A DNA stretch of 64,000 nt from NCBI GenBank assembly GCA_010015805.1, contig ML978122.1:2762453-2826452 (forward strand), read 5' to 3'. The notes below the pieces were generated by a model. It was not told the DNA's origin. It worked only from the letters and a program-made list of their open reading frames with translations, and made no database searches. Below, piece after piece: positions 23,320 to 41,283 of the stretch (position 1 is its first letter; every line of letters begins with the position of its first letter). This DNA is from Rhizodiscina lignyota. Its lineage: Eukaryota; Ascomycota; Dothideomycetes; Aulographales; Rhizodiscinaceae. The translations under genes were made by a program, and so were the position numbers.

Positions 23320-26300
23320 CTATGCCTCCGCCATCACCTGCTCGCCTTCATCCAACATGTTCATAATCAGCGCTACCTTGCGCACCATCTCATTTGCCTG
23401 GCCAACGAGTAGAAGCTTCTCCGCATTCGATGGAAGACCAAGATATGTTGGAGGCTCGCGCTCAGGCAAATTCTTCACCCAATCCATAAACTCTCTCCAT
23501 CCAGTGCCCGCTGGCAGAGTGAGAACCTGGCTGTTTTCAGCCTGCGCTCCGGTAGGCTGGATGTCCTTGATGATATTGTAGTTCTCCTCGAATGCCGCAG
23601 GTGTCATGAAACCAGTAACCAGCTTGTTGAGGGTTTTGAAGTCACTCTCGTCATCAATCTTTCCGCCATACATCTCAGTCGTCAAAGTGCGAAGCATATC
23701 CCAGGGGATATTCTTCGGAGCAACGTTCGTTCTTCCGCCCGCAACAGATTCAACCCATGTATCAATGATGAAGCTGCAGCACTCGTACTATGAAACATTA
23801 GCATCTGTAGAATAACAAGCAGACTCAAAGAACTTACGTCGCTATCATTGAACTCCCAGAAACCCTTCCATCCGAGCGTTGGAGCATAACGTAGTCTCTC
23901 TTGAATGACCGCATGAAGGAAGCATAACAAGAGGTAGATACGGCCGCGTTCGACAGGCTGCTTGGTTGCTCTTGCAGAGAGAGATGATAGAGAGTCCTTC
24001 ATGTTTGCCCTGATTCCAGCGGGCTGCTCGTACATCAAGACTCGAGATGCTCGAAGTAGGTTGACAGGGATCTTGGGATTCGTCTCCATTGACAAGAACA
24101 AGCGGAAGTCCGGATGTGGTTTGAGCGAGTCGATACGTTTCTCAAGACTCTGAAGCCACTGCGGAGCCAGATGTACGTTCTTGACAATGACCCAGGAGCC
24201 AGTTTGGGCTGCATTACTCACAGCTTTGTCTGCGCTGGCCAGGCCTTCATTCGAACCCATGGCAATGGCTGCACAAGTAGCATGCATCCTTTCGACGAGG
24301 TTATCGACTTTGTAGCTCGCGTCGAAACCTGGACTAGAGCTTAACGCGATCGGAACACCCGCGGATACTTGCTTCACGACATCCTCTAGGTCTCCAGTAA
24401 CATCAAGAATGCCATCTCCAAATACAGAAGTGACGAATCGCTCTGCAGCTGGGACCATGCGATCGACGCGGAAGATCCTGATAAGAATGAGGGAGAGTAG
24501 ACCTTGGTCGAGTGGGCTAGTATCTTCAGGCCATACTTGTGGCACATATTTCTCTGCAAATTCTTGAGTCGAGAACTCGTTCCAGGCTGAAGTTGGGATG
24601 TCGGCGATATGCTCCTTGAAGAGGCGATGCTTCGAAGCTCGCTCCATGACCTCATCAGATCGATGTGGGTGAGTTGAAACATCCACCCCTACGATATCCT
24701 CATCGAGAACAGCATCGATCAGCTGCTTGTCCATCTTGTATGGTGCAGCCTGTGCAAGAAGCATAGCAAAGACGACACGATCTCTCTGTAAGAGAGACAA
24801 CGATGTCCGACGGTAACTGACGGAAAAGAGGTTCTTGAGAATAAAGTCGATCCTCGCGTTGTGGCTTGTTTCTGCGGATCGCCTGGCTTCTCTAAGAACG
24901 TACTCGAAAATGTCGACAAAGAACTGCAGCGAGAATTGATAGAAGTGGTTAATGTGGTGAAGTTGTTCCAGAACAGCAAAAATCGCTGAGCAGGATCGAG
25001 CGATAACGGAGTATTGTTGGGTGACGTTGTCGACCTCTTGCATGACACCTTGTGTCTCTGCTGCCTTAGCATTGATCTCTGCAGCTTCCTTCTTCAGCGT
25101 CTCGAGAGTTTCCATAACGCGGTCATCGTCAAGAATGTTTCCGCGTGATTCGTTAAGAGCCTGAAGCAAGCGCTTCTCGAGATGCCGCAGACGAAGACTG
25201 AATTCACCTTGCATCTTAATCAGGTTGGATCGGCGCTCATCGACATCGGGACGCTCGGACTTGAGTACTTCGTTGAGTGATTGAGTCTGAAGACTGCTCT
25301 GGGTGACTGTGAAGTTGACGAACGTTGTTCGAGAGCATATGTCAGGAGCGAAAGTAGCCGACGGATCGCGAGTAGACAGGAAAAGCTTGAACGATGGCGA
25401 AAAGTCGATCTCTTGTTTGCCAAGCTGGATGAGAACACGACCACCTGTCTTCTGGTACTCCTTGTTAAGGACATGCGTGAGGATAGGATCCAGGTGTTCA
25501 GCATCTTGGATCAAGATTGGATTACCGAAACGCAAAGAGCTCTCCAGCTGCTTCACGAAAGAATCATCCAAGAAGCTAGTGACAGTGAGCCTGCGATCTT
25601 TACATTCATTCTGCAAGAACTCGGTGACACGGCCAGATGGATCGATGATAAGTGGGTATCGGTTGAAGCGCTTGAGGATGATCGCATTCTCAGTGCAGAG
25701 ATCATCGACTGGAAGTGAGTTCTCTTGCCACTTGAGACGTTCGTCTGCTGTCGAAAGGTACTCCGTTACTGGGTTGATTGGCTTGTACTGAATGTTGGAC
25801 AGTGACATATGGTGAAGCCAGTCTTCGGTCATTGCTTTTCTGTATTGCTGATCGTAGAAGCCTCCATATGCAATGAAAGCTGCTGCAACAAGGACGTCGC
25901 CAACAATCGTATCGATTTGAGTCGAAAAGGATCGGCTACTCTCTTCCCAACGTGCGCGCTCGGATGACAAACTGTCAAGGAGCCTCATGCTACGGTCGAC
26001 CTTCGACTGAACGCTGCTCATCTCCGATTTGATGGCCTGAGTTTCGCTGATGAGCGCAGCATATTCGGTCTTGTAAGTAGCAATGCTCTTTTCCAGATTC
26101 TTAATTGTTTCGTCGATGGCCTGCGCCTCTGCCTTGGTCTGTAAAGCCGCTTCTTCAAGCTCTTGAACTTCTTCCCTGAGCGGGCCGACTCTGTCGAGAA
26201 TCTCCGAGTAGGTGACCTGAGCCTCCACCCACTGCACAAGCGGACCGCAGGCTTTGCTGGCCCTGTTAACACGCTCAAACGAGAAGTCGTCCTTGGACAA

Positions 26301-29300
26301 GAATTCATTCCGCATCCTGATACGATGGTTCCTGGTCATCTGTCGCTCATTGTCATAGTTGACGATGCTTGCAATGAAGTCATCCTTTCTTACGATAGCC
26401 TGAATATCCTTCCAATTTGCCACCTTGTGACCAAGAAGAGTGCAAACAGATTCCAATGCTAGCTTAACACCAGACGGAGGATTCTGCATTGATCTGACTT
26501 CAGTAAGATGTTGACGCTTGATATTGCTGACACTCTTCTTTGCCTCTGCGACTGCGGGTTCGGCGTTTGCAAGATCGTTGAGCACAACTTCACGACGGGT
26601 CTCAACTTCCTGCTCCTGCTTTTCGAGCGCAGCTTGGATCTCAAGGGAAGCCGACTTCCGTTGCTCAGCTTCGCGCTGATCAGCAATCATACGTTGCAGC
26701 TTCTCGTTTGCCTCTGCATCCTTCTTCTCGAGTTGACCCTGCTTTGCCGCGAGGCTCTTGCGAAGATCGCTGACTTTGTCCACAGTCTCTCGTAACTTGT
26801 CGAGACCGACGTTGAGATGCCGTTGCTGCTCTTCAAGGTCTTCTCGCTTCTCGTGGTATAGCTTGACGTACTGCGCAACAAAATCAAGGAAGTGGCGAGG
26901 AGTAAGGTATGTGATCTTATTCTGCTGCTTCTGAAGGCGAACGCTGAGTTTCTGCAGTGAATAATGGACATAGACCATAGCATTAACAACTGCATCGCGA
27001 TGGTTGAGTGGTAGGCTGAGCTCGCGATAGACCAACTGTACGCTGTCCGGCGCAGAATAAGATGGCCGATCAAGATCGACGCTCTGTGTAAGCTCAGAAC
27101 CAACCTGGAATAGAGCTTGGTCGGACCAGTCTCCAAACCAGTTGAGGACGCAACGATTGAACAGGGCAGGGCTAGTCGCAGCTTTTGAAGAGAGACCTTC
27201 CTCTGGCGGGTTCATAGTGAAAACAACGTGAAGGTTCTTGACGATTTGCTGTGTAAACCACTTGTAAAGCTCTTCTTGGGAGTCCAGAAGAAGGCCCTGT
27301 CGCTGAGCTCCTTCGCGGCAAGCAGTCATGAGAGTTGCATATTCGTCGCCTTCAAAAAGACCCGGTACTTCAGCATTGGCGAGAAGCGTGTTCATGCGCT
27401 CCAGGAAACCCGAATCAAGGACATTGGACTCGTCCATGATGAAGCAGACCTTCTCACCCTTACAGCCGCAGCGTCGAAGTACATTTCGCAGATCCTCATC
27501 GAAGTCCTCAGCGGAGTATTTGCCGTGGACTTTGATCTGGAAGACCGTAAGGCCATTCATCCAAGCTACGAAACGGGACAATGTCGTCTTGCCACTGCCA
27601 CTGACACCGATCAGGATCAGATGGCCTTGCGGTTGCCGGAAGACACGATCGATGCGGAGAACGTGTTCTAGCACGTCGTTGAACAGGATGAGTGGCACGT
27701 CGAGCTCTTCTTCGCAGAAAGTCTTGAGACGAGCTTTGACGAAGTCGCGGAGTTGCTCCCTCTCCACAGGTACGTAATTCTTCGATAGCCAGTTGGAAAA
27801 CAGTATTGGACCTCCCAAGGCCTTATCTTCATCAATGGTAGGGAAGTGCTCGAGAGCAATCCGCTGCACGCTGTCTTGCGTCCAATTTCGCTCATCCTCG
27901 TCAATGAGACGATCCTGGAAGAGTCGAAGGGCCTCGTGCGCCCAAATGCGGACTAGGCCTTCCAGCGTGAGACTCTCAAGTGGCTTGATAGCCTCATACA
28001 AGCCCCGAACCCACCTAGTCAACTCACGAGGCGAGTAGACATAGTGTGGTTGGATATCCGGTGTGAAGCGCTTCTGCGACTCGGAGTACAACTGCACCAT
28101 GGCCTTCGTAAGAGGCTCGGCATAGCCACGCAAAGCTGGGATGATCTTCAGCACGGCGTTGTTGAACGTGCCGTAGATCTGGTGAAGTGACAATTCGCCC
28201 GGATAGTCGACCATCACGAGAGGCGCATGACGAAGGAATCGGAAGCCCATAGGTGTACGTCCAGCATCTGTAGGAGGGTTGCAAGCGCCGACGAACTGTA
28301 TGCGGTCAAGAGTAACCCAGGTCTTGTCGCTTGTCCTCCAGAAGCCATTCTGTTCAATGAGCTGACGCAAGAATGAAATTGCTCGCTGAGTGCCATAGTG
28401 ATCTGGAGCAGGCAGGTTGATTTCGTCGCAGAAGATGACTAGCCAGCGTCCAATTTGCGACGGTGTGAGCATAACACCATTCAGTGTCTTCTTGTACTCG
28501 CAGTATTGCTCGAAAGTCTTGATCAGTAGATCTGGAGTTGTTGCGCTTGAGAAATTCAAGCCTACGACCTCCATGTTGGGAAGTTTTCGCAGCGCACTGA
28601 ACAATGTCATGGTTTTACCGGAACCTGGAGGACCACAGAGAATGAGTGGTTTGTGCTCTGCGAGCCATGAGTAAAGGATGTCCTCGTGCCGAACGGTGTC
28701 AAGTGTCGGTATGACCACGTCCGTCTGAGTTACTGAATGTGTGTTGACCTCAATAGAAGGCACTTGAGATTGCCACATCGTCCAATCTGCAGTTGGGAGA
28801 GAGACATCAAAGTCAATGAGCGAAGTGCCCTGGCCGAGTGGAGGTACATCAACTGTCGTGAGACCTGCTATGTGATCCCCAAAGAGTTTTCTCTCTGATA
28901 GTGGGCAGTCGCCAGTGAAAGACCAAGTCATCGCTAGAAGCAGCTTCTTCGAGAGGTATGCATCGATCTGTTCAACCTCAAGTGGGAAATCCGGGTGCTG
29001 AATATTGTACTCAAGCAACGAGCGGCAGGCCTTATTAAGCAGCGAGAAGAGAGTCTTCAGTGCACGAATATCGCTATACTCCATAATGTGGCGGAGAGGA
29101 CGGGCTTCAGTGAGAGCCTTATGGACAAGCTGCTCGCTCTGTAGATGGGCTTGGAGGAAATCGGCGGCCTGGCCTTGAACAGTGAGCAGCTTCTGAGGTA
29201 ACTGGCCAGGCGGTACTGTCTCGTCCTCTACATCTTCGAATGGCAGCTGGCGAAGGGCAGAAAGGTAGTTCTCGACCATCATGTCTGTTGTAACCGTATC

Positions 29301-32300
29301 ATCGCTGAACCAAACCATACCACAACGACTGACTGTAGCAAGAGTAGCGTATTTGAGGGTCTCGACTTCGAACATGATGCGAACATTCGCAGGCAGATTG
29401 AGGCGCTCTCCATTCGGCAAGGTGAGCAGCTTGTTATCATCAAGAACACTGTTCAAGTTCTCAACCCATTCGGGATCAACGTCACCATCGAAGACGATCC
29501 AGTGTCTCTTTGTGTCTTCACCACGGAGGTTGTCGACGATCTTTCGCAGGATGCTCGTGAATAAACCGTCTGTCCACTCACGCGTCGTGCTGTCGAGACT
29601 ACCGTACAGGTGCTCTTTGCTCATGACCTTAGGATCGATAACGTGGCAAACACCTTCGACGCCTTCCACCTTCTGCAGCGCCTGGAGGAGAATCCTCCAC
29701 GCACTGGACTTGCCAGAGCCTGAGGAGCCCACCATCATGACACCATGATGTAGGCATTGAATCTGGTAGAGTTGGATGACCTTGGCCATCCAGGAATCGC
29801 TGACCACGAATCGAGATGCAGCAGCAACCTCGCGGATTGCCTTCTTGAGCTCTTCAAGTGGAGCAGGTACGTACTCGACACCAGGGAAGGACTCTGCCTC
29901 GATTGTCTCCATGACTTCAGCATCCTGCCGGATCAACTTGGGTCCCATGGTTTCGCGTAAACTTTGCACAATGATCTGTGGCTCCAGAATGTCGTCATGA
30001 AGGCTCTGATCTCCCTTTGTCGACAGTCTTGCGCGCTTCAGTCCTCCCGAACTAACAAGCACGCTCTTCAGGGCACGTAATCCGAAGTCGTAATGTGCCT
30101 GCTTTGACAAGCTCGCAGCGCATTTATCGAAGAACGGTACGGTTTGCTTGCTGAGCTCCTTTGCCCTTGAGAAGCCCTGTGAGAACAGCATAACTTCTGC
30201 GATAAGTTCCTTGTCGGGCTTGGACATGGCAACACTTCGGAATAGCTTCTTCAAGTTGTCTGGAAGATTAGAACGCCCAGCGTAGCCCGGATTCATGGTG
30301 ACAAAGATTCCAGTATTGTTGTGAACGTGCAAGCTACGACCAACGAGGTCGATTTGAACCTTCTCATCGACTACACCGCGACGCAGACCAAGCTGGATAT
30401 TTTGTATCTGCTGAGACACTGCGGACAAAATGCGCTCTTCGAGACGGTTGAATTCGTCAAAGCAACCCCAAGCGCCGACTTGGCAGATACCAAGGAAGAT
30501 CCGTCCCATGGCTTGGAAGTCAAAGGTATCGTCGCAGCAGAACACTAATGTGAAGCGACCAAGCTGAACACCAAGTGCTTTGACTGACTCTGTCTTACCA
30601 GTACCAGCAGGTCCATATGGCGATCCACCCAGCCTCTGGCAAAGGGCTTGAGTGAGAGTGAGGAAGCATCGGTCTGTGAGCGGTGTTCGAACGAGGCGCT
30701 CCGCCACACCAAGATACTCAAACCCGTAGGGAATGATTGCGTTCGCCATTTTAACCTTCAGCCGATCGAGCAACTCTCCTTCGTTCGCGTACACGTAGCG
30801 CATCTGGAGTTGCCACATGTAGTAGTTGGGTGAGTCGGCGTTTGCAGCTTTCAGCTTGCCAATTACATCGCGTTGATGGACGAATTCGGTGATGAGATGC
30901 TCTGACTTTCGCCTCTGTAATGGTTCCAAGTTTCCAAGTACAGACGAAGCCAGCAACCGAAGCAACTCGACGTGGCGATCATAAAGTGCTCCCAGGGATG
31001 CACCACCTTCTCGAAGCGACTCCTCGACAGATGCAGTCCAACAGCACTGGGTAGCCAGGACGACGATCTGAGCCGGGAAAGCAGACATGTAAGCTTCGAA
31101 AGCCGCTGCATCAAGGGTGTCAGCTTCGACAATTGCCTTGAATTGTTCCGATGCGTCCACCAAGAGTTCGGCAAGAGTGACCTTCATGCTGTGTTCAAGT
31201 GCACCGAGCCACTCATTGACCTTGGGGGTCTTGATGAGAGAAACTTCGCGCTTCATCATAACCTCTTCCCCTTCCTTCGAAACGAAGCCGATAATAGTCG
31301 TGTCTTCAGTCGTGATGAGACCGGCGAGGCCGGCGAACATTTTGCGAAGGTGTTTCGCGACGCGCCCAGTGTCATTGCTGTTGCCAATGATCTCCAGCAA
31401 GTCCTCGTCGCCGACAAAGTAGAAGCGTGGGAAAGATACGCGCTCACGCTCAAGGTATTCTCCCAATGCTTTTTGGATCTTGTTGAGTAGCTCTGCCAAT
31501 CGCTCGAGAGACTTCTGCACTCCTGCAATGCTGAGAACCTCCATGACGAATGGCTGCTTCGCGACCTTCCGCATGACTGAAAGGAACTCATTGTCGATGT
31601 TCTGGAAACGCGAAGATTCCAGCGGGAGCAAATGTTTGATATCAGCATTGCCGGTGAAGACGCCCTCAAGGTAGACCCATTGCCTCTGCACATCTATCCA
31701 AACATCGAACAAGACGTGGACGCGGTTGAGCTTCTCTTCCCAGAGCGACGCATCCTCCTCAAATTCTTTGTAGTAGGGGGAATGTCGCATAGCTTGGAGA
31801 GAGTTCAAGTTCTCGGAGCATTTTGCGAACAAGTCGTCCCAGCCGCGAATCAATCGGCATTTGTTGTGATAATTGACCAGGTCCAGGGAGTAGTTCTGCC
31901 AAGTCTCTTTCACTTGCCGAATGAACTCTTCCAATGCCATCTCACCTTGCGCTTGAGCAATGACATCTCGGATAATGACTTCGTTTGCGCTGAGATTGAG
32001 ATCCCAGACATCGCCAAGCGTCATCGAGAGTTGAGAATAACGCTTTGACGGTTTGAGGGTTTTAAAGATGCGGTTCCAGTGTCTTTCCCTTACAGCCTCA
32101 GATCTCATATCTGCAAGTAGCGGGTTCATCTTCAGTAGCTGGCGCAGCTGGTTCTGTACATGCTCGAATGCCGCGTACTGTCGCATTCGGCTAGGCATCT
32201 CCTTGGTCATTTTAATGAGGTTGTCAAGAGACTGGCGCAACTTGCGTGGCTGAATGCTATTCCACAGAGACTCCCGGAGTTCATTGATGCTGTTCCAGAT

Positions 32301-35300
32301 TGTCCCAAGGGCTGCCCAGACGGACTGGAAGTCTTGTACTTCCTCCAGTAGAGTTGAAAGTGCCGTTTCTGGGCTGGCAGGAAGATCCAAGGCTTCTTTC
32401 GCTTTCGCTACCATCTCAGATTCTGACTGGAGCTGCGTGAGCTTGCTGCTAAAAGATTGGAGAGTCAACGAAGCCTGCTCGTGTGGAATAAGGCCGGAGA
32501 CGGGTTTCTCCTCATTCCATTGCGTACTGATCTCTGTGATCTTTTGGTGAACGAGCTTGTCTTCTGCAACAATCTTTGCACGGAGTGCATCAGTCTGGTC
32601 CTGAACGATCTTTGCCTTGCGCTCAAGGATATCGTTCAAAATAGCCCACTCGTGATCAATCTGGTCGACATGCAGCCAGTCCGCAGGGAATTGATGGCGT
32701 TGTCGTTGAAGCATCGTCTGGCCCTGACGAAACACCTCGACTTCTGGTGTCCAAGCTTTGACCTTCCGCTTCGATTGTTGGACGACAGTAATGAATGCAA
32801 CCGCGTGACCGGTAGTTGAAGCCTCCAGTGACTGGCTCTCCAAATCTTTGCGGGCCTTCTCGATATCTGCGTGGACTTCGACCATACGGGTCCCAAGCTT
32901 CCCCGCAAATCGAACCAATATATCGTGTTGCCATTGGTCGTACTTCGCATTAACCTTCATCTGCACTTGCTCGTAGTCCACGTTTACGTGACCAAATGAT
33001 CTGCTGACTTCAGAGGTGTCAAAAGTTGACCGGCTCTTCCTGATCTCTTGCAGAAGCTGGAGCCATTGCCCTAGGTCGTCTCCAAGGGCGTCGTATACTT
33101 GCTCTGCGCGGAGATCCCAAAGAGATTGAAACTGTAACCACTTCGCAATGTATTCGTTTACATGGCCCAGACGCTCCTCGATGGCGTCGTAGACTCGGGA
33201 CAAGGCTTCCATGCAGCGCACTGGAAGTTCGATATATAGAGACTCGGCCAAAACCTCTGAGTCCTGCACACGATGCTCATATCTTGTAGCCTTGACTGTC
33301 TGTAGGTTGCAGACGATGCCAATCCAAGAATGAAGCTGTTCTAACCATGCAGCTCTCGCGTACTCTAGAGGCGGCTCCAAGAAGATGACTTGGTTGCGCA
33401 TTGAGATTTCCAGTACCAGTTGATTTAGTTTTGGCACGTTGCGCTGCATCGGATCTAGATCTTGGTCGGCGTCCCTACTCCTTGGTCTGTCAAATGATGT
33501 CTCATTACTGGTAAAGACTTCAATCCAGTCGTCGATAGCGCGCTGAAGTCTTGCGGTAAGGATATCCTCGATCTTGCCATTCAGCTCAGAAACCCAATAA
33601 GACAAGTTGACATAGTTCTGGAGGTGAAGCTGATCGACAGAGTTTTGGATTGAGTCGAGCGTTCTCTGGAAGGCTTCCTCGGTGTACGGGCAGGTCTCTA
33701 ATTCCGCCAAGCAATTCTGAATGGTAGAATGCAAAGTGGTAAGAGTCGTAGACTTCTTTTGCAGCTCCTCGACGGCGTGGGCAAACTCTCGCACAAACTG
33801 AACGTGCTTGCTCTCGCCTCGCACTCCACTCGTGTCTCCAGGTGCAAGCGTACCGTGCCGAATATGCAGGTCGTAAGCGTGTACAAAAGACTCCCATCTC
33901 AAATACACGCCTTTGGCGATCAAGGCCCGGACATCATTTCCGTACCCGCTTAAGAGAATGGTAACATCTCCTAGTTCCGTGACGGAGCGTTGCGTCTGAG
34001 CGTAGGTACGAATGCTTTCCATCATACTAACAGCGTACGGGTACACGCGTTTAGCTTCCTTGGAAACATTGTTGATAGCATGTGGGACCTGATAATTTAG
34101 CCACAGCAGATTCCGCACTTCCTTGAAGAGCACGATGATCTGGGGGTCAAAATTAACATTGATCTCAAGCACATTGCCGGCTGCGCGGTTGCGTGTTATC
34201 GTGAAGAGGCGCCCTGATATCGAGAGGTTACGTCGCGCGACGTTCTGATACCAGGACTCGAAAATGGGCCGCGTTTCGAGCTTCTTTCGGAACATGCTGC
34301 TCTCGTTTTGCAACTTCTGTCCCTCTGCGTGGAGGGCCCAGTTCTCGCCAAGAATGTCCTCGACTTTCTTCATGTACGCGTCCAGTTGTCGCTCGATTTG
34401 TCTGGCCCAAATGATTGCGCCAGAAACTGGAGGGATATCTCTAAGGCTTGCCATGGCATGCGCTTCCGATTTACCGTACTGCTGCTTGAACCGCTCATGC
34501 AACTGAAGGATATCATCCTTGACATTGTCGATCAATTGCGTCTGGTACTCGGATATTGCGCTTCGGATCTTGGGTCGCACAAACAGCGCGTTGAACTTGG
34601 AGAAGACTCGGAACATCTCATTGGCGTTCTTCGCTATCGCAAGTCGGTCTCTCAGCCTGGCTATGATCGAATTCTCGACTCGCGCAGTCCGCTCATTGTA
34701 AAGCTCTTCGGCATGCGCCCAGATTTGTGTGCCTTCTGGGGACACGTCCAGGACGTCCACATCTTTAAGCGCAGCATAGGCCTGCGAAACTTCTTCCACA
34801 GCATCAACATCACCAATTTCTTCAACGATGACCGGGCCAGTTCCATTAGCCAATTCTGCAGTGTCCTTTGGTCCTGTTGTTGGGCCTAACACGTTGACAA
34901 TCGTTCGCTGCAGCTGCTCGTGGTTATGCCTGAAGTTGTTGATATATTTTAGGCGATCCTGTGTCTTGATGTGCCTTGCCGTAATGCGGATTGGGATAAA
35001 TCTATCATTTCGCTTCCTCGTAACTTCGCGGGCTACATTGGTGAACTCCTTAACATTGTAATCCCACGCCATCCAGATCTCATCAGCGCTCTTCATGAGT
35101 GTCTGAAACTCGGGGAATTCCAAGTGCATCAAAGATCTGCCGCGCATGAGAGTATGCAGTCTGTCGTCAAGATCGCCAGAGATTGCTTCCACAAGAGGTA
35201 ACGCCCGCTGTACTGGATATGGACTTATGCGCAGCTTCTTGTTCATGTGCACAAAGATTTGGTCGATCGATTCCTTCACCTTCTGCAGAGATGTTGCCGA

Positions 35301-36480
35301 CAACAACTCATCTAGAGGGAACTCGCGCATGAGTTGGTTATAGCGCTGCACAAGATCCATCTTCTCTTTCAGTCCGGTATCCGTGCTAAAGCTGATTGCC
35401 GTACCAAATCGTTTCGCATTCTTCAATACCTCGAGCGTGAGAAGGACGCCACCACTACGCAGCTGACTCTCAATAGAGTCTAGTCTCGCTTCCATGGCCA
35501 ACCAAAAGTTGATCTCTTGTGAGGCAGTTCCTTGCGTTGGGTCCCTCGACGTGTCTGTTATCGTGCGTATCGCCTTGATCCACCCATTGACAGAGGTCTG
35601 TAACTGATTATGGAAGGCCGGATCGTCCGTTAAGGTCTTTGGCTTGATCATGTCGATCGTCAGCTGTTGGCCTTTTGGCTCGGCCTCCTCCACAGCTTCT
35701 TGGATGACCGGATGAAGTGGGAGAGACAAGGCAGGGATCTCGACATTTTGCTGCAGCTGCAAGAGATTCAGTTCCAGCTCTGCAATCTTGCGCTTCGTGC
35801 CAGGTATGCCAGTCCGTGCATCGCTGTCTGCCTTGCTCCAAGTCCGGTTCAGCACGTCGTTGTTCTTTGTCAGGGCCTCAAAGTATGGTCCCAGAGCGTA
35901 GTGAAGATACGTATGCACCACCCCTGATGCAGCAGCGGACGAGCCTTGATTTGCGGCTGCGGCATCTTGACTTGATATACCTGGTAGGTATATGACCTGG
36001 ACTTGTGATGTAATCGGAATTTGAGGGTCTAGTGGCTGCGCATTTGGTTTGAGAATGGCAATGGTAGCAACGCAGGTCGGCGAATTCGAGAGGTCTGAAG
36101 AGAGTGTATAGGTGAAGCGTTGAGAAGGTACTGGTAATCTTTGTCAGTATATAAATTTTGATTGCTTGGGAGATATTAAACTAACATGCTGTACCGTTTG
36201 CGCCGTTGGTGTGTAGTGGCTCGGCCTCAACGTCTTTTCGAACATACAGTGCTGCAGCCTGCGGCTCTGAAGCAAATCGCGAACAACGTTGCAGAGTTTC
36301 TGGCAACTCTGATTGCGACAGAAAGCTCGGATATGCTTCCAAGTCAGACTTTGGAGCTCCTAAGGTGACGGTGATGAGATTCGAGAGATGGTCCACCAAC
36401 ACTTGGGGGTCGAATGTTGGTGGACTGGCAGCGTTGGCGATGCCGTTGGCCCCTGGCGGAGCGACCAGAGGGCCTTCCAT
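23320..36480 (-). CDS. nudA: Cytoplasmic dynein heavy chain
   Basis: Three exons (36480-36195, 36130-23838, 23787-23320; introns 64 and 50 nt) give 4348 residues, the usual length of fungal cytoplasmic dynein heavy chains (A. nidulans nudA, yeast DYN1). It is the minus-end-directed microtubule motor for nuclear migration, spindle positioning and vesicle/endosome transport. The first third is the tail that dimerises and binds intermediate chains. The motor ring follows, with P-loops [10 protein letters not shown] (AAA1, near 1930), [11 protein letters not shown] (AAA2, near 2230), [11 protein letters not shown] (AAA3, near 2600) and [12 protein letters not shown] (AAA4, near 2940). The coiled-coil stalk flanks the microtubule-binding region ([17 protein letters not shown], near 3360). 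The first intron needs donor G|GTACAG; the last joins FNDSD to YECCSF. The 12.3-kb central exon has no interruption. Confidence 0.98.
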
Positions 36481-38431
36481 AATATTTCACGTTCCTCTCG
36501 CTGACGTAGACATGTGGATGCAACCAGAGCCTCAGAAAAGTCGGACTGAGGTGGTGCAGCGTTCGTTCGTTGTTGAATTCTTGCGTTTCGCCAACTTTCG
36601 CGAGCGTGAGTTATCAAACGCGTCTGGTGTTTTTGCGCTATTCCGTTCAGGCCTTAGCGCCTTCTCGGGCGTTATTTGACGGCTGCAGGGGTCCAACATC
36701 CATGGATGCACTCCTGACCTCTCCTTTTCTCTACATCTTTTAGCCGTCCAATCATAGTTGGCCGTTCAAAACATTTTGGGGTGATTCTCTGGCTCTGTCT
36801 GCCAATTGTTGACTCGTTCATAACCAAACTCGTCTTCTGGTTCACATTCGACAATATCTTTGTCCTCAACTGACAGCAGTGTCACGACCACTCGTCAAGC
36901 TCAGTGGGGCAAACATATGCCTTTTGATGGCGAAGATTACGATTAATGTTTCAGATTCATACGCATAGGCCATTCGAGTGGATATCCCCCATCTTCGTAG
37001 CTGAAGCCTGAAGACACGCGCTTGGGCTCTCTGGGCCCGAATCCGAGCGATTGTCCTTCAACGAGAGTAATGTCCAAGAGCAGACCAGTCTTATTAAGTA
37101 CTGCGATCCATCCGACTAACTTCAACAAATACCATTTTATTGCGAAAAGATTGTACCGCGAAATGAATTGTGCCCTAAGGGTGTTGGAGTACCTTGTAAC
37201 GTACAAGCTAGTGGCATACGAAGAGGTGAAGAAATCGATCCTTAATCCACACTGCTTTTCCGACTAAAACTGCCGAACATTATCTTGTAACCTTTGGTTA
37301 GAGATACGAAGACCATGTGAAGCGAGGATACCGCAAGAGGAAAGACTGAAGCTGAAGAATCGTCAAAAGATATCGTGAAAATTCAATCCTCGTCCGATCC
37401 AGTCCGGTGATCTCATCTAACACACGGACGTAACAGTTGAACTAGAGAGCTACTCAATATAACCCTAAAACGTTCCAATAAAAGAGGACACGTCGTTGAT
37501 CATGTATCCGCCGAAGATTCGAATTATTGTCGATAGCCTAGCATTCTCTAGCCGGCCTGATCAATAAAGTCGGCGTGAAGGTGAGTTGTTCGCGGAGATC
37601 CTTCTTCCGTCCGAACTGTTCAGCAATTTTGAACGCGAACCTGAGAGATGCTCTCTGTTCTCACACATCCTGCGGGCCTGACATGATTTTGATATATCCT
37701 TAGTCATATTGACACTGCCTAACGTTTACATACCCAGAAGTCGGTTCCGATTGTCTGGATACCGCTTCTGTTCCTAACGTGCGCCTCGTCATTTCGCATG
37801 CGAGACCGACTATGTCTTGACGCGGCTGTCCTTCCGTAAAGGATGCACGCAGCATCACCCACGGAGCTGAACTGTGCAAGCTCCGCTCCTATATTCGTCT
37901 ATCGCCCGCATCGGAAAGATTAAATGTCCTATGACTAAGCACGGCAACATTGATGAGCGCTCAACCATGCGGTCGAAAGGATCTTGGTGGCCTTCGTAGT
38001 TTCGTGGACGGGGTTTGGTGGCGCCGTTGCCCTCTTACGGCCGGTGAGGGATGCAAACCCCAGCGCAGCTGCGCACAAGGGTACGTCTCCTGCTGCTCAT
38101 AGGCTTGAATGACCATCGAAATACGGCCGACGCAAACTTTGCTCCCTACGAGATGAAAGGGCTGAGCCTGAAACGGGTAGATGAGCGATCTGGGCGTGCA
38201 TTGCAAGAAGATGTTGCGTACGAGTGAAATGTATATAGAAGGGATGTCTTTCGCCTCGAAAGATGTTCATTCTCAGCCAGCATTGCCTCGAAACAGTAAA
38301 GCAACTACCCAAAGCACAACAACTCTAGCAATCCGACAAATCACGTCCTTAATCACCTTGATAAATTCCTCAAATTTCTACCTATCAGCTTAATCTCATT
38401 TCCTCTCGAACATTTCTCGAAATCTCTTACA
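36481..38431. other. Divergent intergenic of about 1.95 kb
   Basis: Lies between the dynein start and the DUF4188 gene. No supported gene. A minus-strand frame ending at 36943 has a protein-like tail (PREPKRVSSGFSYEDGGYPL, then EWPMR) preceded by a possible AG acceptor near 37110, but no upstream exons could be built. It may be an orphan exon or relic. The last 100 bp before 38432 are CT-rich leader sequence. Confidence 0.45.
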
Positions 38432-39349
38432 ATGGTCAGCGCCGCAGACTTTAAGGGTCTCCTCAAGCCCGTCGTCGAAAAGCCCAAGAACCAATCCAGA
38501 AACACAGAACACATTTTGGGCCCACTTGACAGCGGACTTGCAGCTATTCTTCGCGACCAACTCTCTCTATCCTCCTGGCTTGCACTTGGCGCCATAGTCC
38601 AGGGTCTTCTCTTCCTCGTTCTGGGTCGTGTCGCTCTGATCCTCCCCATCACACTTGTCGGCTGGCGAGTACTCGATGCATTTCTCCAAGCGCAAGGACT
38701 AAAGCCGAATCCGCATATGGAGGGCGTCATCAAGAACAAATTCTCGGCACAGTTCCCATCTGAAGACGGTCAATACGGCAACAAGCCTGCCAATGGCGAA
38801 GTCTGTGTGCTCCTACTCGGCTTCAAGAGCAACCATCCAATGCAAATGCTCGCGCCGGGCTTCAAAGAAACAGGCGACCATTTCAACAACATGATGGTCG
38901 AGTTGCAAGCACACAAAGAGGAGAACGGCCTGCTGGGCACTACGAGCTGGATCGGTCTTGGGGAGCGGACGACAGCAAACGAAGTCATGACCACTTTCTA
39001 CTTCCGCTCCCTCGAGGACGTCCACAACTTTGCGAATGGAAAGGTCCATCGCGATGGCTGGAACTGGTGGAACAAGAATGTCCACAAGCACCCACATCTT
39101 ACCATCTGGCACGAAGTCTTCCGAGCCACTAGCGGCAACTGGGAGTCCATCTACGTCAACTCACCTCCAACCAGCCTTAGCGCGACAGCATTCAAGGGTA
39201 TTTCTGAAGAGACCGGCGAAGAAGTTTGGCATAGTCCCATTGTTGATGCCAGGAAAGGTCTGCTGAAGACCAGCGCCGGAAGAATGTCGCGTTCTCAAGG
39301 TGATGAACACGACAAGTACAACGATGATCCGTACGGTAACTACGCTTAG
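38432..39349 (+). CDS. DUF4188 (monooxygenase Af470-like) membrane protein
   Basis: A single exon of 305 residues starting MVSAADFKGLLKPVVEKPK. A hydrophobic double segment at about 48-85 (WLALGAIVQGLLFLVLG, then ALILPITLVGWRVLDAFL) should insert in a membrane. The soluble part has a ferredoxin-like alpha/beta character with NGEVCVLLLGFKSNHPM, WIGLGERTTANEVMTTFYF, then NKNVHKHPHLTIWHEVF, the pattern of fungal DUF4188 proteins. The family name comes from a fumagillin-cluster oxygenase, but most members have no known substrate and no cluster surrounds this one. The polar C-terminus is rich in Asp, Ser and Tyr. It is convergent with the H4 variant gene. A family-level call; function not inferred further. 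Confidence 0.8.
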   Translation: MVSAADFKGLLKPVVEKPKNQSRNTEHILGPLDSGLAAILRDQLSLSSWLALGAIVQGLLFLVLGRVALILPITLVGWRVLDAFLQAQGLKPNPHMEGVIKNKFSAQFPSEDGQYGNKPANGEVCVLLLGFKSNHPMQMLAPGFKETGDHFNNMMVELQAHKEENGLLGTTSWIGLGERTTANEVMTTFYFRSLEDVHNFANGKVHRDGWNWWNKNVHKHPHLTIWHEVFRATSGNWESIYVNSPPTSLSATAFKGISEETGEEVWHSPIVDARKGLLKTSAGRMSRSQGDEHDKYNDDPYGNYA

Positions 39350-39764: not shown

Positions 39765-40565
39765 CTAGATAGTACGGCTCCATATGCCTGGAATGTTTTT
39801 CGTCTCCCAGGGGCCCTGCATTTCGTTAGTTCTCCATTTGCGGCGTGATGATGAGAAATACGGACGTAAATCGGAGTGCCGAGACGGTTAAGCACAAAGA
39901 CGATCTGATGCAGTGCGTCAGCAATAGAGAGATTCTTGCTGTGCCTGGTGAACTCACGTCGGTCACGGTAACTGTCTTGCGGCCCTGGTGGCCGACAATA
40001 ATGCAAGCTTGAGACAGAATCTAAAAAGATCTGTTAGCAGAATGTTACACGTAGCATAAATGCAACCGACCTGTTCGAGGCGCTTCTTGACCACACAACG
40101 AACTTCGTCATAGATAGTAGCGGAAATGCGCTTGATTCCGCCGCGGCGAGCTAGGCGACTATTTGGAGTAAGACATAGGCAGTCAACCCTTGGTGCAATC
40201 GCAAATATCGCTTAAACAAGCTAATGATAAGGCTGGACTCGGAGGAAGTTATGTTTCACTTCGCGCGTACCGAATATCGTTCTTCTGCGTATCATATTGG
40301 TACGGTTATCACCCTTTTTCGGTAAGAATAGAACGTACTGTGATGCCGCGAATGTTGTCACGCAAGATTTTCCTTTTCGTAATGTTCGTCAGCCCGTGCC
40401 CTGAAGCAAAAACACTATGCATGTAAGGCTGGTGTTGATGTTTCGGCCTCACCTGTGTCTTTTGAGGGTCTTGCCGCCCTTGCCTTTTCCTGCACCTAGC
40501 CCTAAACTGGACTTTCCACCACCCATTGGCAGCCCAGAGCGTGCTGTTGTGGATGGCTTCACCAT
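39765..40565 (-). CDS. Divergent histone H4 variant with 14-nt microexon
   Basis: Seven exons: 40565-40453, 40372-40339, 40283-40270 (14 nt), 40158-40071, 40020-39958, 39904-39866, 39815-39765; 402 nt, 133 residues. The H4 fold is clear: KGGKTLKRHRKILRDNIRGI, then TKNDIRRLARRGGIKRIS, then GRKTVTVTDIVFVLNR. The microexon supplies KNDIR; without it the exons neither join in frame nor restore this conserved segment. The N-tail is longer than canonical H4 (begins MVKPSTTARSGLPMGGGKS). The region of the third histone helix is changed (VKKRLEQILSQACIIVGHQ). The C-terminus reads GTPIYGPWETKNIPGIWSRT instead of the short LYGFGG-type end. Filamentous ascomycetes are known to carry an H4 variant (H4v, as in Neurospora) beside ordinary H4. 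How it alters nucleosomes is unknown. Confidence 0.9.
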
Positions 40566-41283
40566 TGTCGCGAAATGGTGAATTGGAGTGGAGTGGAAGG
40601 TGGTTTGGGATTGGATTTGAGGTTTGTTTAGAAGAGTAATACCTCACGCTCGGAACGCGCTAAACCGTATTCTGCGATGGTGCCTAGGCTACAGCACCAA
40701 TCCTAGTCACGCCAAGATCCCGTAGACCCGCTATCTGCTCTAAGTCATCATTTCAGGGTTAGGGTTAGGGTAGTCCGCTGATGACCATCAGACTGATGCG
40801 ACCTGGAAACCACCTGAGCTTAAAGTATTTGTTGTATTACGTATACATGGAGTCCTGTACATAGTCCTGCAATTGCCATGGAAATTGCCTGCGTATGACT
40901 CTTCAAGAATTCAGGACATTTCACCTACTCGAGGGTGACAAAAATTTGCCCACATCTTTCAGGACACTGAACAAACAATAGTGTGCAACCTGTGCAAGTT
41001 AACAAAGGGAAATTTTGACGGTTCACCATTATTTAGCACATTCCAAAGGACATATAACTAAGCTCCCGGAGATAGTCTCGCTTGCCTTAAAAGTGTAAGA
41101 GCTATTCGCCCTTATACGTTACAACTTGGCTGGCGGGCAAATGTTTCACATCAAGACCTATAAATAGAACGTACACCGAGTATGTCACAAAGTGATACTA
41201 ATTCGAACTATGTGCAATAGCTAAGTACAAGGTAGACGATACCGGTTATACAGTTAGCGGAGGATAGGGTCGAAAAGGGCAGA
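40566..41283. other. Intergenic: H4 variant promoter and Lon 3' flank
   Basis: About 720 bp with no supported gene. It holds the telomere-like array at 40755-40773, listed separately, and an AT-rich remainder. Confidence 0.5.
40755..40773 (-). promoter_or_regulatory. Telomere-like (TTAGGG)n / tandem AACCCT box
   Basis: The plus strand reads AGGGTTAGGGTTAGGG; on the minus strand, the coding strand of the H4 variant, this is CCCTAACCCTAACCCT, containing two AACCCT hexamers. It lies about 190 bp upstream of the H4 variant start codon. AACCCT boxes are the known histone promoter element in fission yeast (bound by Teb1), and TTAGGG is also the fungal telomere repeat. Either reading is possible; the position favours a promoter element. 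Confidence 0.5.

Follow-up and report, generated by a model that had tools for sequence, protein, structure and literature searches.

How does a histone H4 variant gene keep its reading frame when two of its exons do not fit each other? H4E (hheA) is described as an enigmatic H4 variant of Pezizomycotina, named H4v in Neurospora crassa (PMC10878826), and a gene that resembles it lies on the minus strand of the stretch of 64,000 nt analyzed here (the window; Rhizodiscina lignyota, contig ML978122.1). In this gene, phase 0 is found at the end of exon 2 (40339) and phase 2 at the start of exon 4 (40158); these two exons cannot be joined in frame, as an earlier note on this DNA had stated. That note placed a 14-nt exon between them, and we find that synthesis of the protein very probably depends on inclusion of this 14-base piece by splicing.

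The gene model and its product

The predicted gene has seven exons and occupies positions 40565-39765, beginning with an ATG (40565) and closing with a stop codon (39767-39765); removal of its six introns would leave a product of 133 residues, open over 133 codons. Exon 1 (40453..40565) contributes 113 nt from the ATG and ends in phase 2, and it is followed by intron 1 (40373..40452; 80 nt, GTGAGG..AAG, with a branch-like GCTGAC), exon 2 (40339..40372; 34 nt, phase 0 at its end, whereas the typical H4E has 29-32 nt and phase 1) and intron 2 (40285..40338; 54 nt, GTACGT..CAG). Exon 3, the microexon AAGAACGATATTCG (40271..40284; 14 nt), encodes K, N, D and I together with the CG of an Arg codon. 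Downstream of it lie intron 3 (40159..40270; 112 nt, GTACGC..TAG), exon 4 (40071..40158; 88 nt, matching the typical H4E model), intron 4 (40021..40070; 50 nt, phase 0), exon 5 (39958..40020; 63 nt), intron 5 (39905..39957; 53 nt, phase 0), exon 6 (39866..39904; 39 nt, that is 21 + 18, with no intron at the published i7 place), intron 6 (39816..39865; 50 nt) and the coding part of exon 7 (39765..39815). For intron 6, eight AG acceptors were translated, and the one chosen keeps YG and gives a 50-nt intron; this acceptor is the least certain junction of the model, and the C-terminal tail is therefore the least certain part of the protein.

The 133-aa product matched histone H4 in a phmmer search against PDB chains (best E 2.6e-29), with an alignment that runs ungapped across the microexon, where KNDI stands against KPAI. 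In Pfam, a 117-residue form scored just above the cut-off of CBFD_NFYB_HMF (21.5 vs 21.4 bits), and TAF remained under its own cut-off. We found two canonical H4 genes in the genome. They encode the same 103-residue protein, and each has two introns, one after 10 nt and the other 138 coding nt later; none of these coincides with any of the six introns of the variant. The variant core shares 51 of 84 residues with the canonical H4 of this genome, and its tails are longer and diverged, with KRHR starting at residue 35 (canonical 17) and a total of 133 vs 103 residues. A search of the genome with PF15511 (CENP-T_C), a family poorly suited to H4, gave five matches, two of which are the canonical H4 loci, and one scan of a collection of genome contigs for H4E relatives found none.

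The order nudA (dynein heavy chain)-hheA-svf1 is reported to be kept in Eurotiomycetes and Dothideomycetes (PMC10878826). Here, a dynein heavy chain ORF lies near the H4E gene, as published (23682-36143, minus strand; its domains were found in the piece 23682-26081), whereas the Svf1 gene, published as adjacent, is located at 3087561-3088101 of the same contig, approximately 285 kb from the H4E gene. Between the dynein gene and H4E, an ORF on the plus strand (38300-39349) matches Pfam Monooxy_af470-like with E 4.4e-35. At 40756-40770, some 190 bases 5' of the H4E ATG, there is a telomere-like run, GGGTTAGGGTTAGGG; nowhere else in the 264 kb examined do two full units (TTAGGGTTAGGG) occur, and the run could be a promoter element or the scar of a telomere repeat.

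The 14-nt piece between exons 2 and 4

The 14-mer lies on the minus strand between an AG and a GT, with GATACGCAG before it and GTACGC after it. Its sequence and flanks are as the earlier note gave them; the interval 40283..40270 assigned to it there is one base low, the true one being 40284..40271. The identification of the piece as an internal exon of a histone H4 variant gene holds: it brings back the frame and the TK--IRRLARRGG stretch, and its four residues and two Arg codon bases stand at the place of K31 to R35 of canonical H4. When all paths from exon 2 to exon 4 were enumerated, allowing GT and GC as donors, AG as acceptor and no intron shorter than 35 nt, 1,430 were obtained (123 with one intron and 1,307 with two), 169 of which are open in frame, the retained form being counted. 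Among these 169 open paths, the one with the 14-nt exon is the best match to canonical H4 (158), followed by a path with a GC donor and a 20-nt exon (146) and by one with an 11-nt exon (145). The 14-nt path also has the highest weaker-intron splice score among the GT-only two-intron open paths.

Chance was assessed by post hoc tests, designed after the 14-mer had been seen and for length 14 only: when the 180 nt separating exon 2 from exon 4 were dinucleotide-shuffled 50,000 times, the arrangement AG-[AAR N6 ATH CG]-GT was present in 1 shuffle; 61 of the 50,000 contained an AG-14-GT (the 14-mer ending in CG or AG) whose peptide equalled or exceeded the score of KNDI against H4 KPAI; and among the 439 AG-14-GT sites of the window (209 on the plus and 230 on the minus strand), the 14-mer alone scored that well. 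In the 33.4-Mb genome, the pattern CAGAARNNNNNNATHCGGTRNG has two matches, and its read-backwards control also has two. The bare motif is thus no proof; what counts is where it sits in the H4 frame.

Splice signals were scored with a consensus-seeded position-weight model built on junctions between long ORFs that adjoin each other, 84 of 91 being kept; they came from 264 kb of the 33.4-Mb genome, made up of the window plus 20 pieces of 10 kb each. The stricter run is the one reported. Relative to the 84 intron-like junctions, the total scores of introns 1-6 fall at about percentiles 37, 29, 43, 31, 38 and 58, and these values indicate compatibility only, because the training was seeded with a consensus and had no transcripts in it. 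Weak components are the branch point of intron 2 (14th percentile) and the acceptors of introns 4 and 5 (2nd percentile), and the lengths of introns 4 and 6 lie at percentile 8. A first training drifted into coding sequence and was discarded because it selected 1,132 supposed introns from the 264 kb; in that run, introns 2 and 3 had ranked at about percentile 3.

We consider it highly likely that the 14-mer is exon 3 of an H4E (hheA/H4v) orthologue, constitutively included by intron definition, with intron 2 displaced by 2 nt. The spliceosome would remove the 54-nt intron before exon 3 and the 112-nt intron after it, each by intron definition, so that exon 3, in a transcript presumed to be spliced, would be included constitutively and would supply K-N-D-I and two bases of the Arg codon. 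Fungi are inferred to recognize splice sites chiefly by intron definition (PMC2397502), and with flanking introns as short as these, plain removal of two short introns is the simplest account. The special recognition that the earlier note had demanded for such an exon is accordingly not needed, given introns of this length with ordinary total splice scores and the prevalence of intron definition described in PMC2397502. The earlier note had also made too much of the rarity of such exons in fungi: in a white-rot fungus (Phanerochaete), almost a third of P450 genes are reported to have microexons (PMC1184071), a 1-nt exon is reported in Fusarium (PMC12940212), and the typical H4E model itself contains a 16-nt exon at this place (PMC10878826). 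As a counterpoint, functional microexons are said in PMC11121469 to have been previously undescribed in filamentous fungi. In the H4E family, a very small exon is in itself to be expected. The gene model is nevertheless of a type that automatic annotation could easily miss, and correct models are a precondition for testing H4E, since no detectable function of the protein is reported in PMC10878826.

Other readings of the locus

The acceptor of intron 2 forms part of a tandem, CAGAAG (40282..40287), and use of both AGs would produce in-frame exons of 14 nt and 11 nt that differ by one lysine; we regard this as unlikely. An open reading frame is kept in the 11-nt model; the score of its first intron is 13.4 vs 15.3 in the 14-nt model, and it ranks third by protein match (145 vs 158) and second by weaker-intron score among the GT-only two-intron open paths. 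However, the first AG of CAGAAG outscores the second, and the 11-nt form would lose a lysine that is also present at that place in the genome's canonical H4. The dropped lysine takes the place of K31 (counted in the canonical protein minus its first Met), which is a modification site of H4 in other organisms. One could imagine that intron 2 slid by 2 nt and that the tandem acceptor yields variants with and without the K31-place lysine, a state that would be set by splicing and not by modification; we hold this combination to be less likely still. Skipping of the whole 14-mer does shift the frame, as the earlier note had claimed, and translation gives a dead product of 65 residues, 49 normal and 16 altered, with three exon junctions downstream of the stop. 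In filamentous fungi, an mRNA with a premature stop ahead of exon junctions is subject to decay. With a regulated switch, conditional skipping would lead to this frameshifted product and probably to nonsense-mediated decay, and inclusion would set H4E on or off, which appears very improbable to us. The on/off role had been derived solely from frame arithmetic, which is equally true of any exon with a length that is not a multiple of three. Points in favor of a switch can be cited: a 20-nt microexon of Trichoderma Xlr2 is included in a glucose-dependent manner (PMC11121469), the mRNA level of A. nidulans hheA responds to nitrogen starvation and temperature (PMC10878826), and a table in PMC2397502 appears to list a few very short cassette exons from Stagonospora nodorum and A. 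nidulans. Against a switch, retained introns exceeded cassette exons 37-fold in the fungi and protists surveyed (PMC2397502), and nowhere does the main text of PMC10878826, on H4E, use the terms alternative splicing, isoform or microexon. Retention also stops translation early, after 58 residues for intron 2, 60 for intron 3 and 58 for both, and loss of frame is therefore not special to skipping. Because skipping and each of these retentions end in such short products, correct splicing is needed for any H4E to be made; this need is a requirement and not evidence of a switch.

The least probable of the readings, in our judgment, is that there is no microexon, a single intron joining exon 2 to exon 4, or that the gene has decayed. 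Open single-intron paths do exist, for example from a donor at 40312 to the acceptor at 40159, giving ITVRSILTEKGRLARRGG, but the top path of this kind reaches 133 vs 158 for the 14-nt path and loses the TK--IR residues. Decay is also hard to reconcile with a full model that is open throughout its length and whose six introns have ordinary total scores. Single-intron and retained-intron models were enumerated and rejected, scoring below the 14-nt path.

Comparison with H4E and with other tiny exons

With 14 nt, the exon falls inside the size range of 3-30 nt given for microexons (PMC11121469). Xlr2 of Trichoderma virens (PMC11121469) is similar in that an internal exon with a length (20 nt) that is not a multiple of three occurs in a filamentous ascomycete, and the 1-nt exon of Fusarium CYP621A (PMC12940212) is similar in that it was inferred from out-of-phase flanking exons inside a conserved motif. 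Unlike the exon described here, which is read from sequence alone, the Xlr2 exon was found by RNA-seq to have glucose-dependent inclusion, and the CYP621A exon is reported to be backed by 18 SRA reads from two species. In the titles and abstract openings of the literature searched, no 14-nt H4E exon is named.

The typical H4E model, that of Symbiotaphrina buchneri, has a phase-2 intron 1, an exon 2 of 29-32 nt, a phase-1 intron 2, an exon 3 of 16 nt, a phase-2 intron 3 and an exon 4 of 88 nt (PMC10878826). The constitutively included 14-nt exon that we propose corresponds, by its predicted place, to this published 16-nt exon, slightly shifted. The differences are confined in this region to exon 2 (34 nt vs 29-32), exon 3 (14 nt vs 16) and intron 2 (phase 0 vs 1). 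Since exon 2 equals 32 + 2 and exon 3 equals 16 - 2, intron 2 lies 2 nt further downstream, in phase 0, and the displacement amounts to 2 nt (34 + 14 = 32 + 16). We infer that the intron slid, in one genome, where loss and regain would look alike; the locus thus provides a candidate for the slight displacement of an intron at a tiny exon that is conserved. Inspection by eye led us to reject an exon of 16 nt delimited by the phase-1 boundary of the published model, since it would need an intron CA...GC. Because the model is called "typical" in PMC10878826, where gained and lost H4E introns and a possible slide are also described (sliding being raised for intron 1, in Glomeromycota), we treat the mismatch at exon 2 and intron 2 as a departure and not as a condition of membership.

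In A. nidulans, seven hheA introns are confirmed by sequenced RT-PCR products, the database model was incorrect, and the Aspergillus model departs from the typical one in two introns (PMC10878826). We read these two as the fifth and the most 3' one, and we infer from this that exon 3 of A. nidulans has 16 nt. In the 3' part of the gene described here, the published phase-0 i7, which follows a 21-nt exon, is missing and the 39-nt exon is uninterrupted; intron losses are reported for the family in PMC10878826. The exons of 60, 18 and 21 nt (i4 to i7) in the figure legend of that paper do not fit the gene, whereas its text does at two points: exon 5 has the 63 nt given outside Eurotiomycetes, and the last intron lies 18 nt beyond the i7 place, as given for Dothideomycetes. 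In common with the published H4E (PMC10878826), the gene further has an H4 core with longer, diverged tails, introns at places unlike those of canonical H4, a phase-2 intron 1, a tiny exon 3 ahead of a phase-2 intron 3, an 88-nt exon 4 and a phase-0 intron 4.
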